Source: a bacterium
GTDB lineage: Bacteria; Chloroflexota; Dormibacteria; Dormibacterales; Dormibacteraceae
Direction of reading: 5' to 3'
DNA length: 64,000 nucleotides
NCBI GenBank assembly: GCA_004299235.1
Contig: SCQL01000031.1
Location: forward strand, 1 to 64,000
Shown: positions 17,714-24,754 of the stretch, one piece after another
Layout of the letters: each line of letters begins with the position of its first letter
How positions within the stretch are numbered: the stretch's first letter is position 1
The notes under the pieces: generated by a model
Database searches by the model: none
What the model was told of the DNA's origin: nothing
Seen by the model: only the letters and a program-made list of their open reading frames with translations
Made by a program: the position numbers and the translations under genes

Positions 17714-18019
17714 ATGAATGAATTCTTCGAAGATCTGGGCCGGCGCTGGGTGGCGGCGGCCGGGCGCCGTCACGTTCGTATCGACGCGCCGTCGCTCGAG
17801 CCCCGGGTGGCGCTGGAGCTGCTGGAGCTGGCGCGGGTCGCCGCCCACACTCGTGAGCGCCGGTTCGCCCCGCTCTCATGCTTCCTGGCCGGGGTCGCGG
17901 CGGAGCGTCTGCGCGCGGCTGAGCCGGGGCTCGATGACACCGCCGTCGCGGCATTCGTCGAGGAGGTGCGGCGGGAGCTGGAGGCCGAAGCGCCGCCGGC
18001 GGCGCCTAGCGAACGTTGA
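17714..18019 (+). CDS. DUF6457-type small protein
   Basis: A 101-residue acidic helical protein. The pattern LLELARVAAHTRERRFAPLSCFLAGVAAERL resembles the DUF6457 family, which is frequent in actinobacteria and often adjoins or is fused to molybdenum cofactor guanylyltransferase. That association is from family knowledge, not from anything proven here, but the nearby molybdenum-dependent formate dehydrogenase fits it. The 3' end overlaps the convergent mrp gene by 14 nt. Molecular function is unknown. Confidence 0.6.
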   Translation: MNEFFEDLGRRWVAAAGRRHVRIDAPSLEPRVALELLELARVAAHTRERRFAPLSCFLAGVAAERLRAAEPGLDDTAVAAFVEEVRRELEAEAPPAAPSER

Positions 18020-19094
18020 TGACGGGCAGCTGGCGGAAACTCTGAATCGCTACCCGAGCGGCAAGGGCGGAGGCGACCTTACGCAGAGCCTGGGCCCCCT
18101 GGGTTTCGGGACGCGAAGTGACCACCGGGGCGCCGGCGTCCGCCGCCTCGCGAATCGCCTTCTCGAGCGGGATCGCGCCGAGATAGGGGACGCCAAGCCG
18201 CCGGGCCGCCAGCTCGGCCTGTCCGTGATCGAAGATGTGGTGCTCCTCACCGCAGCGGCTGCAGATGAACCAGCTCATGTTCTCGACCAGCCCGAGCGGG
18301 GTCACATTGAGACCGCGGAACATCTGCAGCGCCTTGACGGCGATGCCCAGCGCGGCATCCTGAGGGGTGCATACGACTGCGACCCCGGTCAACGGCACCG
18401 ACTGCGCCAGGGTCAGCGATGCGTCACCCGTTCCAGGCGGTAGGTCGATGACCAGGTAGTCGAGGTCGCCCCAGAGGACGTCGGTCAGCATCTGTTCGAT
18501 CGCGCGCGAGACCATCGGTCCGCGCCAGACCATCGCCTTGTCCGCCCCCGCCAAAAACCCGATCGACATCAGCTCGAGCCCGAAGGCCTCGAGCGGGACG
18601 AGCTTTTGGTCCTGCACCCTCGGCTGGCCGTGAGTTCCCAGCATCCCGGGCACCGATGGCCCATAGATGTCAGCGTCGAGCAGGCCGACGCGGGCCCCCG
18701 ACAGCTGGAGCGAGGCGGCCAGATTGACGGCCACGGTGGATTTGCCGACGCCGCCTTTGCCCGAGCCGACCGCGATCGCATGCTTGACCCCCGGGATCAC
18801 CTGATCGCGCGGCCGGCCGCCGAAGGCGGCGCGCACGTTGGCCGTCATCCTGAGGTCGACCGCGGTCACACCGGGCAGCCCGCTGACGAGGTCCTTGGCC
18901 AGGGCTTGAAAGCGGTCTCTGACGGGGCACGCGGGCGTCGTCAGCTCGAACGTGAAGCTGACCCTGCCGTCGGCGCCGATGGCGAGGTCTTTGATCATTC
19001 CCAGGCTGACGACGTCACGGTGGAGGTCGGGGTCCTGAATCCCCGCCAACGCGGCCAGCACCTGGTCTGAGGTGGGCGGCGCGCTACTGGGCAC
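18006..19094 (-). CDS. mrp: Mrp/ApbC-family Fe-S cluster carrier ATPase
   Basis: P-loop ATPase of 362 residues that delivers Fe-S clusters to target enzymes in the cytosol. The N-terminal MIP18/DUF59 domain (about 8-90, with LAGIQDPDLHRDVVSLGMIKDL) precedes the deviant Walker A GKGGVGKST near residue 117. DADIYGPS, DLPPGTGD and a cluster-binding CSRC motif near residue 270 follow. The GTG start overlaps the nrfD-type gene by 11 nt. As the last gene of the formate dehydrogenase operon it may help load the many clusters of FdhA and FdhB. Confidence 0.92.
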   Translation of the reverse strand: MPSSAPPTSDQVLAALAGIQDPDLHRDVVSLGMIKDLAIGADGRVSFTFELTTPACPVRDRFQALAKDLVSGLPGVTAVDLRMTANVRAAFGGRPRDQVIPGVKHAIAVGSGKGGVGKSTVAVNLAASLQLSGARVGLLDADIYGPSVPGMLGTHGQPRVQDQKLVPLEAFGLELMSIGFLAGADKAMVWRGPMVSRAIEQMLTDVLWGDLDYLVIDLPPGTGDASLTLAQSVPLTGVAVVCTPQDAALGIAVKALQMFRGLNVTPLGLVENMSWFICSRCGEEHHIFDHGQAELAARRLGVPYLGAIPLEKAIREAADAGAPVVTSRPETQGAQALRKVASALAARVAIQSFRQLPVINVR

Positions 19095-20022
19095 TGAAGA
19101 TGACCGCCGCGCGCAACGCCAGCACGCCGAGCAGCACCAGCGCCGAGACGACCCCCGTGTCGGTCAACGCGGGAGCGATCACCGCCGCGCCGCCCGCGGG
19201 TTGCACGTGGGAGCGTCCCCGCGCGCCCGCAAGGGACGCGGCGATCCCAACCAGCGCCAGCACCCACAGAGGCGCCCAGGCCAGGGTCTGGCCCGCACTC
19301 CCGGCCACGGCGACCGTGGCGAAGAAGACGACCAGCAGGATGAGCTCGAGCCCGGAGAAATAACCGTCAGCCACCCGCAGGCGAGCATGGCTGTACGACG
19401 CTTCGGCACGGTATCGCATCAGAAGCGCGATCAGCGCCGCCGATCCGCTCAGGCCTGACGCCAGGAACAGGCCGCCCAGAGCCCAGGTGTCGCTCCAGAC
19501 GGGCTGGTTGCTGACACTCAGGAGGACTCCCGTGTAAGACGCGATGAACAGGCCGGCGATGGCGCCGGCGATGTTGAATGCCCGGCCCAGGACGCCGCCC
19601 AGCGGAGCGACCCTTGCCGCGGAGGACTGGCGGGCTCGCCTGTCCAGGAAGAACGCCTCCACCGCGGAGACGGTGACCAAGGCGCCGAAGACCAACAGGG
19701 CCCAGGCCCCCACCGACATGGGCGACCAGTACTTGAAGTTGAGGCCCTCCTGACCCGGAGTGACGTTGACCAACATATGCCAGAACCGCGACCAGCTCGC
19801 GCCGAGGTCGACGGTCAGGAAGATGGGACAGGGCAGGGTGGCGACGAAGGCGACGTAAAAGCCGATCCGCGCCGCGGCTTCGTCACGGGCGTCGCCGGTA
19901 GCGCGAAATATGGTCGCGAGGGTGTAGGAGCCGCCGGCGAGCCCGGCGAAGAAGAAGTAGAGGAGGATGTACCACTGCCATTGCGGCGCGCGGACGAAAT
20001 GCTCCGCCGCGAGCAGGATCAC
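19084..20022 (-). CDS. NrfD/PsrC-type membrane anchor of formate dehydrogenase
   Basis: Integral membrane subunit, 312 residues, with about eight to nine hydrophobic segments and the early FFFAGLAGGSYTLATIF motif typical of the NrfD/PsrC family. It would pass electrons from the Fe-S subunit to the quinone pool. The GTG start at 20022 overlaps the fdhB stop (GTGA); the open frame upstream is antiphase fdhB sequence. The classical Fdn enzyme uses a cytochrome b anchor (FdnI); here an NrfD-type anchor takes its place and no heme-binding His pattern is evident. Confidence 0.85.
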   Translation of the reverse strand: MILLAAEHFVRAPQWQWYILLYFFFAGLAGGSYTLATIFRATGDARDEAAARIGFYVAFVATLPCPIFLTVDLGASWSRFWHMLVNVTPGQEGLNFKYWSPMSVGAWALLVFGALVTVSAVEAFFLDRRARQSSAARVAPLGGVLGRAFNIAGAIAGLFIASYTGVLLSVSNQPVWSDTWALGGLFLASGLSGSAALIALLMRYRAEASYSHARLRVADGYFSGLELILLVVFFATVAVAGSAGQTLAWAPLWVLALVGIAASLAGARGRSHVQPAGGAAVIAPALTDTGVVSALVLLGVLALRAAVIFSAQ

Positions 20023-20822
20023 TGCTCGCCTCGCCGCCGGAACGCGACCAATCCGGCGATCACGGCGAGCACCGCGGTCACCAGGGCGCCGGCGTAGCCA
20101 CCGACATTGTTGCGGCTGGGCAGGACCGCGTTGTCCGCATTCGGGAGGCCGTAGGCCTCGGGCTTGTCCATGAGCAGGAAGAACGCGTTCAGCCCGCCGT
20201 AAACCTTGTCGTCGCGGCCGTACAGCTGGGCCTGCGACACGCCCTGGGTGTGGAGCGCCACCAGCCGGATGTCGGCGGCTTTCTGCAGGTCGGCCAGAGG
20301 CCCGAACTGAATGGACTGTGTCGGGCAGGCTTTGGCGCACGCCGGCTCCAGCCCGCCCTGCAAGCGGTCGTAGCACATCGTGCATTTGTGGGCGGTGCCC
20401 GTCTTCTGGTTCATGCCGATGACGCTGTAGGGACAGGCGGCGACGCAGTTGCGGCAGCCGTTGCAGACGTCCTGCTGGATGAAGACGGTGTCGAACTCGG
20501 TGCGGATGATGGCGCCGGTCGGACAGACCTCCATGCAGCTCGCGTGCTTGCAGTGCTTGCAGACGTCGGACATCATCAGCCAGGCCGTGCCGTTGCCGGC
20601 ATTCACCGACTGGTCGGGCACGTCATCGAGGAATTTGACGTGACGCCAGTTCTGGGCGTCGAGCTGGCCCGTGTTGTCGAAGCTGTCAGCCAGGAACGCC
20701 GGCTCGTTGCCCTGCAGCGAGTTCCATTCCTTGCATGCCACCTCGCATGCCTTGCACCCGATGCAGATGCTCGTATCGGTGAAGAACCCGTAAGACTGGC
20801 CCGGCTTGATGTCGAGTGCCAT
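20019..20822 (-). CDS. fdhB: Formate dehydrogenase Fe-S (beta) subunit
   Basis: Electron-transfer subunit of 267 residues with four Cys clusters for [4Fe-4S] centres: CIGCKACEVAC, CKHCKHASCMEVC, CNGCRNCVAAC and CTMC followed by CAKAC. A single C-terminal membrane helix ends in RRRGEQ and would anchor the protein with its bulk outside, like FdnH/FdoH. The ATG start is 4 nt after the fdhE stop. It couples FdhA to the NrfD-type quinone-reducing anchor. Confidence 0.93.
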   Translation of the reverse strand: MALDIKPGQSYGFFTDTSICIGCKACEVACKEWNSLQGNEPAFLADSFDNTGQLDAQNWRHVKFLDDVPDQSVNAGNGTAWLMMSDVCKHCKHASCMEVCPTGAIIRTEFDTVFIQQDVCNGCRNCVAACPYSVIGMNQKTGTAHKCTMCYDRLQGGLEPACAKACPTQSIQFGPLADLQKAADIRLVALHTQGVSQAQLYGRDDKVYGGLNAFFLLMDKPEAYGLPNADNAVLPSRNNVGGYAGALVTAVLAVIAGLVAFRRRGEQ

Positions 20823-20825
20823 ACC

Positions 20826-21701
20826 TCAAAACCCCATGAGATTGGGCAAGATCTTCGAGAACCCGCGCTCCCTGGCTACGAGGTCGAGCGGGATGGCGGC
20901 CAGCTCATCGACCAGAGGCACGGCGCTCGGGTCGCTCGCCAGGTCGATGCTGAGCAGGTATTGCCGGCATGTCTCGCAGGCTTCGACACGAATATGCGGG
21001 AAGAGCACCGTCTCTACCGCGGAGCGGCCGTTGGCGGGACCGGCCGGCAGACCGCGCACGATGCTGCCGCGCTCGCCTGAAGTCGTGCCCTCCTCGCTGA
21101 GGATGGGCAGCCGAACGCTCGAGTCCTCGCCGCAGCCGGCGCACGTCATGCGGGCACAACCCCAACTCGAGTGGCAGCGGGCGCAGAGCAGATAGCGGGG
21201 CCCGGTCGCGAGATCCTCCCCGGCGACGGCGAAGTAGCTGAGCTGCGGCGAGCCGCCGCAGTGCGGGCAGTGCCGCGGATCACGCGACCCCGCGCATGCC
21301 GCGCCGGCCTCCGGTCCCAGCGCCTCGAAAACGGGTGTCAGGGATGCCCGGGCGATGTATCGATCGACGACCGACTGCTCCTCGCCGCGGATCCAGGCGC
21401 CGAGAATGTTGACCGGGTGCTCTTGTTCCAGACGTCGCACCAGCGCCCTCCGCAGCCGGTCCGGGCCCGCGGCCAGGCTCACCTCGTGCACGCCCGGCAC
21501 CACGAGCTCGGCCGCGTAGACCGCCAGGTCGTCTGGCGCCGGTGGTGCCGCACTCGCCTCGACGTAAGCCTGCTCCTGGACCGGGAGCAGAGCCCCGTAC
21601 AGGTCCAGCAGCTCGCCCGCAAACGGTTGTCGGCGTCTGAGCTCGGCGGTGCGGCGCCGCCGATCGGTCCACGGCTCGGCGGCGGTGGCCAGGAGCGACA
21701 T
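20826..21701 (-). CDS. fdhE: Formate dehydrogenase accessory protein FdhE
   Basis: Rubredoxin-like chaperone of 291 residues needed for formate dehydrogenase maturation, probably binding the Tat-targeted FdhA before export. The C-terminal half has paired CxxC motifs (CPHC, CARC, CAGC and CETC) that bind iron in the family, and PHCGGSPQLSYF is typical. It overlaps the fdhA stop by 1 nt. Its location between the alpha and beta subunit genes is unlike the usual distal position in enterobacterial fdo operons. Confidence 0.9.
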   Translation of the reverse strand: MSLLATAAEPWTDRRRRTAELRRRQPFAGELLDLYGALLPVQEQAYVEASAAPPAPDDLAVYAAELVVPGVHEVSLAAGPDRLRRALVRRLEQEHPVNILGAWIRGEEQSVVDRYIARASLTPVFEALGPEAGAACAGSRDPRHCPHCGGSPQLSYFAVAGEDLATGPRYLLCARCHSSWGCARMTCAGCGEDSSVRLPILSEEGTTSGERGSIVRGLPAGPANGRSAVETVLFPHIRVEACETCRQYLLSIDLASDPSAVPLVDELAAIPLDLVARERGFSKILPNLMGF

Positions 21702-24700
21702 CAGATCTTCTCCAGGTTGACCAGGAACGCTTTGAACTCCGGAGTGCGAGCGTTGGCGTCACCGACGAAAGGCGTCAGCGCATTGGCCAGCCAGTACCTC
21801 CCGTGGCTGGGGTCGCTGTCGGCGGCGATGCCGACGTAACCCCAGTGAATCGGGATGCCGATCTGGTACACCTTCTGCCCCGCGACCGTCATCGAGCCGA
21901 GCCGCCGGGTGACGAGCGCGAGCACCTCGACCTTGCCACGCTTGGAGGAGACGCGGACGTGATCTCCGCTCTTGATGCCCTTTTCCGCCGCCAGCTCCGA
22001 CGGGATCTCAACGAAAGGTTTCGGCTGCAGCTGCACCAGGTGAGGCACGTGCTGGGTGACGTAGTGCTCGTGCTCGGTCAGCCGGTAGCTGGTGGCGATG
22101 TAAGGGAACTCGGCCGGGGTGCCGAAGCGGTTCGGCCTGCCGGCCGCCTGGTCGTAGAGGAATGCCACCGGCGAAGCCGAATTGGCCGCGTGCAGCGGAT
22201 TCGCGACCGGTGATTCGACCGGCTCGTAGTGCTCCGGCAGCGGCCCGTCGATCATGCCGTTGCTGAACAGGCGGCCGACGCCCTCGCCATTCATGATGAA
22301 AGGCAGCCAGGCTTTGGGATCCGTGGGGCTCATCGTCGGCGGATAGTCGGGCACATCCCCGACCCATTTGCTGCCGTTCCAGGTGATGCCCGGGCGCGCC
22401 GGGTCCCAGGGCTTGCCCTCCAGGTCGGCCGACGCCCGGTTGTACATGACCCGCCGGTTGAGCGGCCAGCTCCACGCCCAGTTGGGGTAAAAACCCAGGC
22501 CCGTCGGGTCGTTGGTCTTCGGTTCCTGGATGCCGCCGCGGCGCTTCATCAGGTTGCCCGAGTCGACATAGCTTCCGGTGTAGATCCAGTCCCCGGTCGT
22601 GGTCGTGCCGTCGGCTTTCAGGTTGGCAAACGTGGTCATCTGCTTTCCGGTGGTGAGATCCTTGCCGTTGATCTCCTTGGCGATCTCGTCCAGCTCCGGC
22701 TTGAGCGGGTCCTTGTAGTCGAAGGTCAGGGCGGTGATCGGGGCCGCGAACCTGCCCCCCTGGTCTTGGTAGAGCTTTTTGACCCGATGGAAGAGATCGC
22801 TGAGGATCCAGTGGTCGTGGCGGGACGAGCCCTGCGGTGGCAGGACCTGGTCCTTCCATTGCGACCAGCGCCCGCTGTTGACGAACGACCCGTCCTTTTC
22901 GATCCAGTGGGTGGTCGGGAGCAGGAACACCTCGGTCCTGACCTGGCTCGGGTCGACGCCAGGCGCGTGCCAGAACTCCGAGCTGGTCGTGGGCAGCGCG
23001 TCCATCACCACCAGCCACTTGAGGTTGGCCAGCGCCTGCCGCACGAGGTTGGAGTCCGGCCCGATGCTCGCGGCCGTCATCCCGGACAGGATCAGGCCCT
23101 CCATCTTGCCCTTGAGAGCCTGGTCGTAGATCGACATCCACGACGAGTTCTGCGCCGGCTTGGGCACGTAGTCGAAGGCAAACTCGCTGGCCTTGGTGGC
23201 CGCGTCGCCGTACCACGCTTTGAGCGTGCTGACCATGAACTTGCGGTAGTTGATGCCGAAGAAGTTCCATGAATGCGGGTCGGATCTCTTGGGTGCGCTC
23301 TGGGCGACGTAGTCGTCGAGGTTTTTCTGGCCCGGTGCGGGAATCTTCAGGTAGCCGGGCAGGATTTCCCACGAGATGGCGTGGTCGGTGTTGCCCTGGA
23401 TGTTGGCGTGCCCGCGCTCGGCGTTCATGCCGCCGCCCGGCCGTCCCATGTTGCCCAGCAGCAGCTGCAGCACGGCGCCGGAGCGAATGAGCTGCCCGCC
23501 GGTCGTGTGGTGGGTCAGCCCGACCGCGTAGACGATCGTCATCACCTTGTCGGGCTTGCCCATCTGGCCGACCAGGCCGGCCACCTTCTCGAACTGGTCG
23601 ACCGGGATGCCGGTGATGCTCGACACCATCGCCGGCGTGTAGCGGGAGTAGTGCGCTTTCATCAGCTGGAAGACGGAGCGCGGGTCCTGCAGGGTCAGGT
23701 CCCGCTTCGCGTAGCCGCTGCCGTCCGTCTCGTAGCTCCAGCTCGCGATGTTGTAGGCGCGCTTGGCCGGGTCGTAGCCCGAGAAGAGGCCGTCCTTGAA
23801 GCCGAACCCGTCTTTGACGATGAATGACGCGTTCGTGTAGTTGCGCACGTACTCGTCGTGGAAGAGGTTGTTCTGCAGAACGTGGTTGATCAGCCCTCCG
23901 AAGTACGCCACGTCCGAGCCGGTGCGGATGCGGAGGTACATGTCCGCCACCGCCGAGGTGCGCGTGAAGCGCGGATCGGCGTGGATGATCCGGGCGCCGC
24001 GATCGAGCTTGGCCCGCATGAACCACTGGAACCCGACCGGGTGGGCTTCAGCGGGGTTGGCGCCGTTGATCAGGATGAGGTCGGTGTTCTTGATGTCGCG
24101 CCAGTGGTTGGTCATCGCTCCCCTTCCGAACGTGGCGGCCAAACTGACCACCGTCGGGCCGTGTCAAACCCTGGCCTGTTGTTCTAGGTGTACCAGTCCC
24201 AGGCCGCGCATCAGCTTGGTGGCGAAATAGCCCTCCTCCGAGCTGAACGCGGCTCCCCCGGCGAAGGCGATGCCCTCGCACCGGTTCACGGTGTTGCCGT
24301 TGCCGTCGGTGGTGACGAACGTGGCGTCCCGCGACGCCTTGATGTTCTGCGCGAGCCGGTCGAGCATGAAATCCCACGAGACGCTCTTCCAGCCGGTCGC
24401 GCCGGCGGCGCGGTACTGAGGCGACTCCACGCGACGAGGTGAAATCGCCAGTTGCATCGCGGTCGCTCCCTTCGGGCAGAGGCGTCCCTCGTTGACCGGG
24501 CTGTCGGGATCGCCCTCGATCTGGAGCAGCTGCACGCTGCCGTCGCTCTGCTGCCGGGTGTAGGCGACCAGCGAGCAGCCGACCGCGCAGTAAGGGCAGA
24601 TGGAGTGCGACTCGCGAGCGCCGGCAATGCGCAGGCTCTGCTTGACCTTGGTCGACTCCGCCAGCGCGACGTCGAAACCGAGACCGGAGGCCACCAGGGC

Positions 24701-24754
24701 TCCGGCACCGGCGACCCCGACCTTGAGGACGTCCCGACGGGTGACGGTCGGCAC
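21701..24754 (-). CDS. fdhA: Formate dehydrogenase alpha subunit, selenoprotein
   Basis: Oxidises formate to CO2 at a molybdenum (or tungsten) bis-MGD centre. It has 1017 residues if the in-frame TGA at 24166-24164 is read as selenocysteine (residue 197). The context VHLEQQARV-U-HGPTV matches the Sec site of FdnG-type enzymes, and family length (about 1015) is met only by read-through. A Tat signal (TRRDVLK, residues 5-11) directs export. CPYCAVGC with a later Cys binds a [4Fe-4S] cluster. The GTG start at 24754 has GGGAGG about 9 nt upstream. Conventional gene calling would split it into 24754-24164 and 24151-21701. A good promoter lies upstream; selenocysteine machinery is not in this window. 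Confidence 0.93.
24134..24166 (-). promoter_or_regulatory. UGA selenocysteine codon and bSECIS-like hairpin
   Basis: Downstream of the TGA (24166-24164), the segment 24152-24134 can fold into a stem of seven to eight pairs (GGTGGTCA with TGGCCGCC, two G-U wobbles). The apical loop contains GU, the feature SelB recognises in bacterial SECIS elements. The loop starts about 19 nt after the TGA, within the range known for fdhF and fdnG. Confidence 0.7.

Follow-up and report, generated by a model that had tools for sequence, protein, structure and literature searches.

The minus strand of the window, the whole 64,000-nucleotide stretch analysed here, carries a formate dehydrogenase (FDH) operon whose alpha subunit gene contains a single in-frame TGA codon. 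The operon and its features, all on the minus strand, comprise:

21701–24754, minus strand: fdnG/fdhA, putative selenocysteine (Sec)-containing formate dehydrogenase alpha subunit, 1017 aa (translation, TIGR01553, Pfam, E. coli FdnG)
24164–24166, minus strand: in-frame TGA, predicted to be read as selenocysteine 197 (TGA in all readable loci; opposite the FdnG Sec)
24134–24152, minus strand: predicted bacterial SECIS hairpin with a 7-bp stem and the loop AGTTT (24145–24141; fold and comparative pairing)
20826–21701, minus strand: FdhE-like maturation protein for formate dehydrogenase (PF24860 passes its cut-off at 43.1 bits; TIGR01562, at 51 bits, does not)
20019–20822, minus strand: FdnH-like iron-sulfur beta subunit with a C-terminal hydrophobic segment (PF13247; TIGR01582 at 162.5 bits, short of its equivalog cut-off)
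19084–20022, minus strand: NrfD/PsrC-type membrane subunit (PF03916, 63.9 bits)
18006–19094, minus strand: Mrp/ApbC-type iron-sulfur carrier (PF10609, 319.5 bits; synteny)

Translation of 24754–21701 yields one open frame whose sole internal stop is the TGA at 24166–24164, codon 197, so the first-pass annotation, which described two minus-strand frames in the same phase split only by this codon, had the coordinates right. The read-through product has 1017 residues, and position 197 sits in the context LEQQARV-U-HGPTV (TGA shown as U), and the length, Sec position and local context given earlier are likewise borne out. Read directly, the DNA around this codon runs ...CAGGCCAGGGTT-TGA-CACGGCCCGACGGTGGTCAGTTTGGCCGCC.... 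Under translation table 11 the gene falls into two ORFs, 24754–24164 (196 aa) and 24151–21701 (816 aa), both with a GTG start. The expectation that annotation would report a broken gene held in part: table 11 does split the frame, but in a Pseudomonas and an E. coli plasmid record the homologue is annotated as a single fdnG feature. The terminal stop is also TGA, and this one FDH gene would use the triplet twice, for Sec at codon 197 and as the final stop at 21701–21703 (minus strand). When TGA is taken as Sec, other long ORFs also arise in the window, most of them frames with many TGAs such as a high-GC genome produces.

Against NCBIfam TIGR01553 (formate dehydrogenase-N alpha; equivalog cut-off 814.2), the read-through protein reaches 1289.5 bits, the match spanning profile positions 2–1009 of 1009 and protein residues 4–1016. 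E. coli FdnG (1kqf_A) aligns over residues 4–1016 with an E value of 4e-299 and sets its Sec opposite the TGA, confirming the earlier proposal that the site lies in the FdnG Sec neighbourhood. Chance is excluded, since the two halves cover the two parts of a single 1009-position profile and align with E. coli FdnG over its whole length. Pfam matches (PF04879, PF00384, and PF01568) mark the Fe4S4, molybdopterin and dinucleotide-binding domains. The active-site motif UHxP is present as U197-H-G-P, and the conserved active-site Arg lies in NAERGHANIQG, aligned with NALRGHSNIQG of FdnG. The protein has a [4Fe-4S] Cys motif, and its N terminus bears a Tat signal whose twin-arginine motif (TRRDVLK) indicates that the alpha subunit is probably exported.

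Operon organisation

The FdhE-like gene starts at an ATG that overlaps the TGA stop of fdnG. For the NrfD-type gene the longest ORF begins at 20385, and the probable start is a GTG that overlaps the stop codon of fdnH. The FdhE-like and FdnH-like proteins score below their NCBIfam equivalog cut-offs, so both are named by homology. The order FDH–FdhE–FdnH–NrfD, with the FdhE-like gene beside the FDH, is conserved in most relatives, and the Mrp-type gene accompanies it mainly in the nearest.

In E. coli, the membrane subunit FdnI is a cytochrome b. The window operon differs in its NrfD-type subunit: an FdnI-type dihaem cytochrome b is absent from the operon, and the membrane gene there matches PF03916 (NrfD). 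It also contains the FdhE-like gene, and its SECIS sequence is different from that of E. coli. The alpha subunits themselves are alike, FdnG (1KQF/1KQG) sharing full-length alignment, the Tat signal, the [4Fe-4S] and Mo-bisPGD domains, and Sec followed by HGPTV. Judged by these genes, the alpha subunit is an FdnG family member, and the predicted complex differs from the FdnGHI of E. coli.

Among other relatives of the enzyme, Desulfovibrio-type Sec FDHs are soluble periplasmic enzymes that work with cytochrome c. Their structures (6SDR and 8CM4) show the same family and Sec site (E value 2e-269), whereas the window operon includes a membrane subunit gene.

Conservation of the in-frame TGA

TGA occupies the Sec site in all 108 readable loci, at protein identities of 49–89%, among Chloroflexi/Dormiibacterota, Actinomycetota, Eremiobacterota, Rokubacteria, and Acidobacteria. 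These loci combine two partly overlapping sets, a scan of genome contigs and a search of the class, include the window's own locus (L103), and correspond to fewer independent sequences, namely 58 distinct N-free stretches from the TGA to +54. The nearest relatives are 85–89% identical along their entire length, before and after the TGA alike, and outside this codon nearly all full-length relatives keep an open frame. Such conservation, at a known Sec/Cys redox position, bears directly on whether a nonsense mutation or a sequencing or assembly error has produced a pseudogene. The two ORFs given by the standard table 11 would fit a pseudogene, but a TGA at the same codon in every readable locus, across many assemblies and several phyla, excludes it, and the open remainder of the frame and the full-length identity also speak against it; site conservation already refutes this explanation, to which we attach virtually no probability.

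A sense codon in close relatives, the other observation named earlier as one that could overturn the Sec reading, does not occur here; Cys is present in one distant paralogue of the class. Fourteen distant paralogous matches from this class were read: in 13 the Sec site likewise holds a stop, and the exception (L141, G039:C5:1100-4800) reads QARVCHSSTV where its relatives have the stop, which by sequence comparison is a natural Sec/Cys exchange. That the two pieces are separate functional proteins of a split subunit is exceedingly improbable: a GTG five codons past the TGA (24151) does open the 816-aa ORF, but the break would fall in the active site, at Sec and the adjacent His, and in the readable loci the frame runs through the TGA unshifted.

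In a tree of 79 FDHs (quick method, midpoint root), the window FDH lies inside a Chloroflexi/Dormiibacterota soil clade. Eremiobacterota, Rokubacteria, and Acidobacteriota form one branch each, and Actinomycetota form two main branches plus one misplaced MAG. The Rokubacteria branch falls within the Chloroflexota rows of this quickly built, midpoint-rooted tree, a placement that may reflect gene transfer and does not prove it.

Hairpin downstream of the TGA

The predicted SECIS hairpin, GGTGGTC-AGTTT-GGCCGCC, begins 11 nt past the TGA, with its loop 18 nt past it. Across the 58 distinct sequences, 96.6% of stem cells hold standard pairs. Synonymous recoding with the family's own codon usage (500 runs) reduces pairing to 74.2% (sd 1.7, maximum 80.0%), and sliding the partner arm by 1–3 columns lowers it to 19–68%. 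The fourth stem pair varies on both sides, being G-C in 44 sequences and C-G in 11. Loop codons AGT (58/58) and TTG (55/58) are kept, and in these genes they make up 4% of Ser codons and 6% of Leu codons, respectively. This comparative pattern indicates that selection is acting on the RNA beyond protein coding, as a SECIS requires.

Folded on its own, the single window sequence is no more stable than shuffled controls (z of 0.05, −0.89, and 0.95), so the case for the SECIS is a comparative one. An Rfam scan of the window gave no match, which is uninformative against a bacterial SECIS, as its sequence varies. The E. coli SECIS stem has a bulged U; the window stem has no such bulge. The published bSECIS model specifies a loop of 3–9 nt, a stem of 4–16 bp and a spacing of 16–37 nt, with G as the first or second loop base, usually before G/U (PMC13188914), and the window hairpin fits it with a 5-nt loop, 7 bp, A-G-U, and 18 nt.

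Rare, partly conserved codons flank the hairpin (window 24105–24186, minus strand). AGG precedes the TGA, and GGA and AGG/AGA/CGA, also rare in these genes, lie 13–14 codons after it; the RNA constraint may extend past the 7-bp stem.

Selenocysteine machinery and host lineage

The assembly is a 2.87 Mb draft of 100 contigs, 96.8% complete and 0.92% contaminated. The organism had been predicted to possess genes for Sec synthesis and insertion, a test set beforehand, and selA, selB, selD, and tRNA-Sec were all recovered from it. The tRNA-Sec scores 68.6 bits with anticodon tca (UCA), selA 492 bits with selB directly after it (353 bits), selD 364 bits, and fdhD 169 bits. The tRNA-Sec and sel genes sit on contigs other than the window's. 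In the tRNA-Sec (L001:1501-1596, minus strand), the innermost part of the acceptor stem, as drawn in the Rfam model, contains two non-standard pairs and the variable arm has a 5-nt insertion; the molecule may be of the short-acceptor (7/5-like) form. A second above-cut-off match to the tRNA-Sec model (L002, 48 bits) proved to be a tRNA-Ser (gct).

The selD frame (L019, G000:C9:223513-227451, minus strand) itself holds an in-frame TGA, near 2409–2407, in the context GAG-U-ACKLSP. UxxK is the known Sec site of SelD (PMC13188914), so the SelD of this genome is probably a selenoprotein too.

The machinery and the hairpin also bear on whether the fdnG TGA is read as another amino acid, Trp or Cys, by a code-4-like reading or a suppressor tRNA. 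The Cys of the single distant paralogue is in keeping with such decoding, but against it stand the full Sec pathway, including the tca tRNA-Sec, the SECIS-like constraint downstream of the TGA and the end of the gene itself, where TGA terminates and hence is not generally a sense codon; we consider this reading extremely unlikely. The sequence evidence makes it nearly certain, in our judgement, that the locus is an intact gene for a Sec-containing respiratory FDH of the FdnG type, with TGA read as Sec. The frame, site conservation, hairpin constraint, machinery genes and operon can each be demonstrated from sequence; Sec insertion itself at codon 197 we infer, as we do the metal, the reaction direction and the electron acceptor of the enzyme.

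In the proposed mechanism, SelA and SelD would charge tRNA-Sec(UCA) with Sec, and SelB would deliver it to the ribosome at the UGA, guided by the SECIS hairpin just downstream. The mature subunit would hold Mo or W, Sec, and [4Fe-4S]. Once exported by its Tat signal, it would oxidise formate outside the cytoplasmic membrane, passing electrons to the FdnH-like subunit, from there to the NrfD-type membrane protein and then probably to menaquinone.

Among bacterial selenoproteins, FdhA and SelD are the most widespread, and Sec at TGA is well known for this enzyme; the window gene therefore adds a case of an already known type and leaves knowledge of Sec decoding unchanged. What is modestly new is the NrfD-type membrane subunit and the host, a little-noted soil lineage placed in Dormibacterota ('Chloroflexi') by the nearest FDH relatives. 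The trait, thought in the first-pass annotation to be patchy among high-GC soil lineages, is common in this class, with selA in 79 of 110 genomes and in 34 of the 37 better ones. For the Sec field, the locus adds this lineage and a well-sampled hairpin alignment. The gene, which should not be filed as broken, indicates that an uncultured soil lineage apparently builds the 21st amino acid into a respiratory enzyme.

We found no open-access paper joining Dormibacterota with selenocysteine or formate dehydrogenase, which is weak evidence of novelty, as the search took in few subscription papers. A Sec-dependent, NrfD-anchored respiratory FDH could be a widespread, so far undescribed Dormibacterota trait whose cluster has moved between soil phyla (Actinomycetes, Rokubacteria, and Eremiobacterota) with its SECIS, a proposal we advance tentatively and rate as somewhat improbable. 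If true, selenium supply would condition formate use by Dormibacterota, a soil lineage.

The Sec FDHs of Actinomycetes (Nonomuraea, Streptomyces, Amycolatopsis, and Rhodococcus rhodnii) are 71–74% identical to the window protein and have the TGA and the same hairpin, although they belong to a different phylum and to a separate tree branch. In contrast to the window genome, with its sel genes on other contigs, several of them carry the tRNA-Sec within the same ~13 kb. In L052, L053, L056, L061–L064, and L077, no more than a few kb separate it from this Sec-FDH operon, which suggests that the Sec trait can travel along with its client gene.
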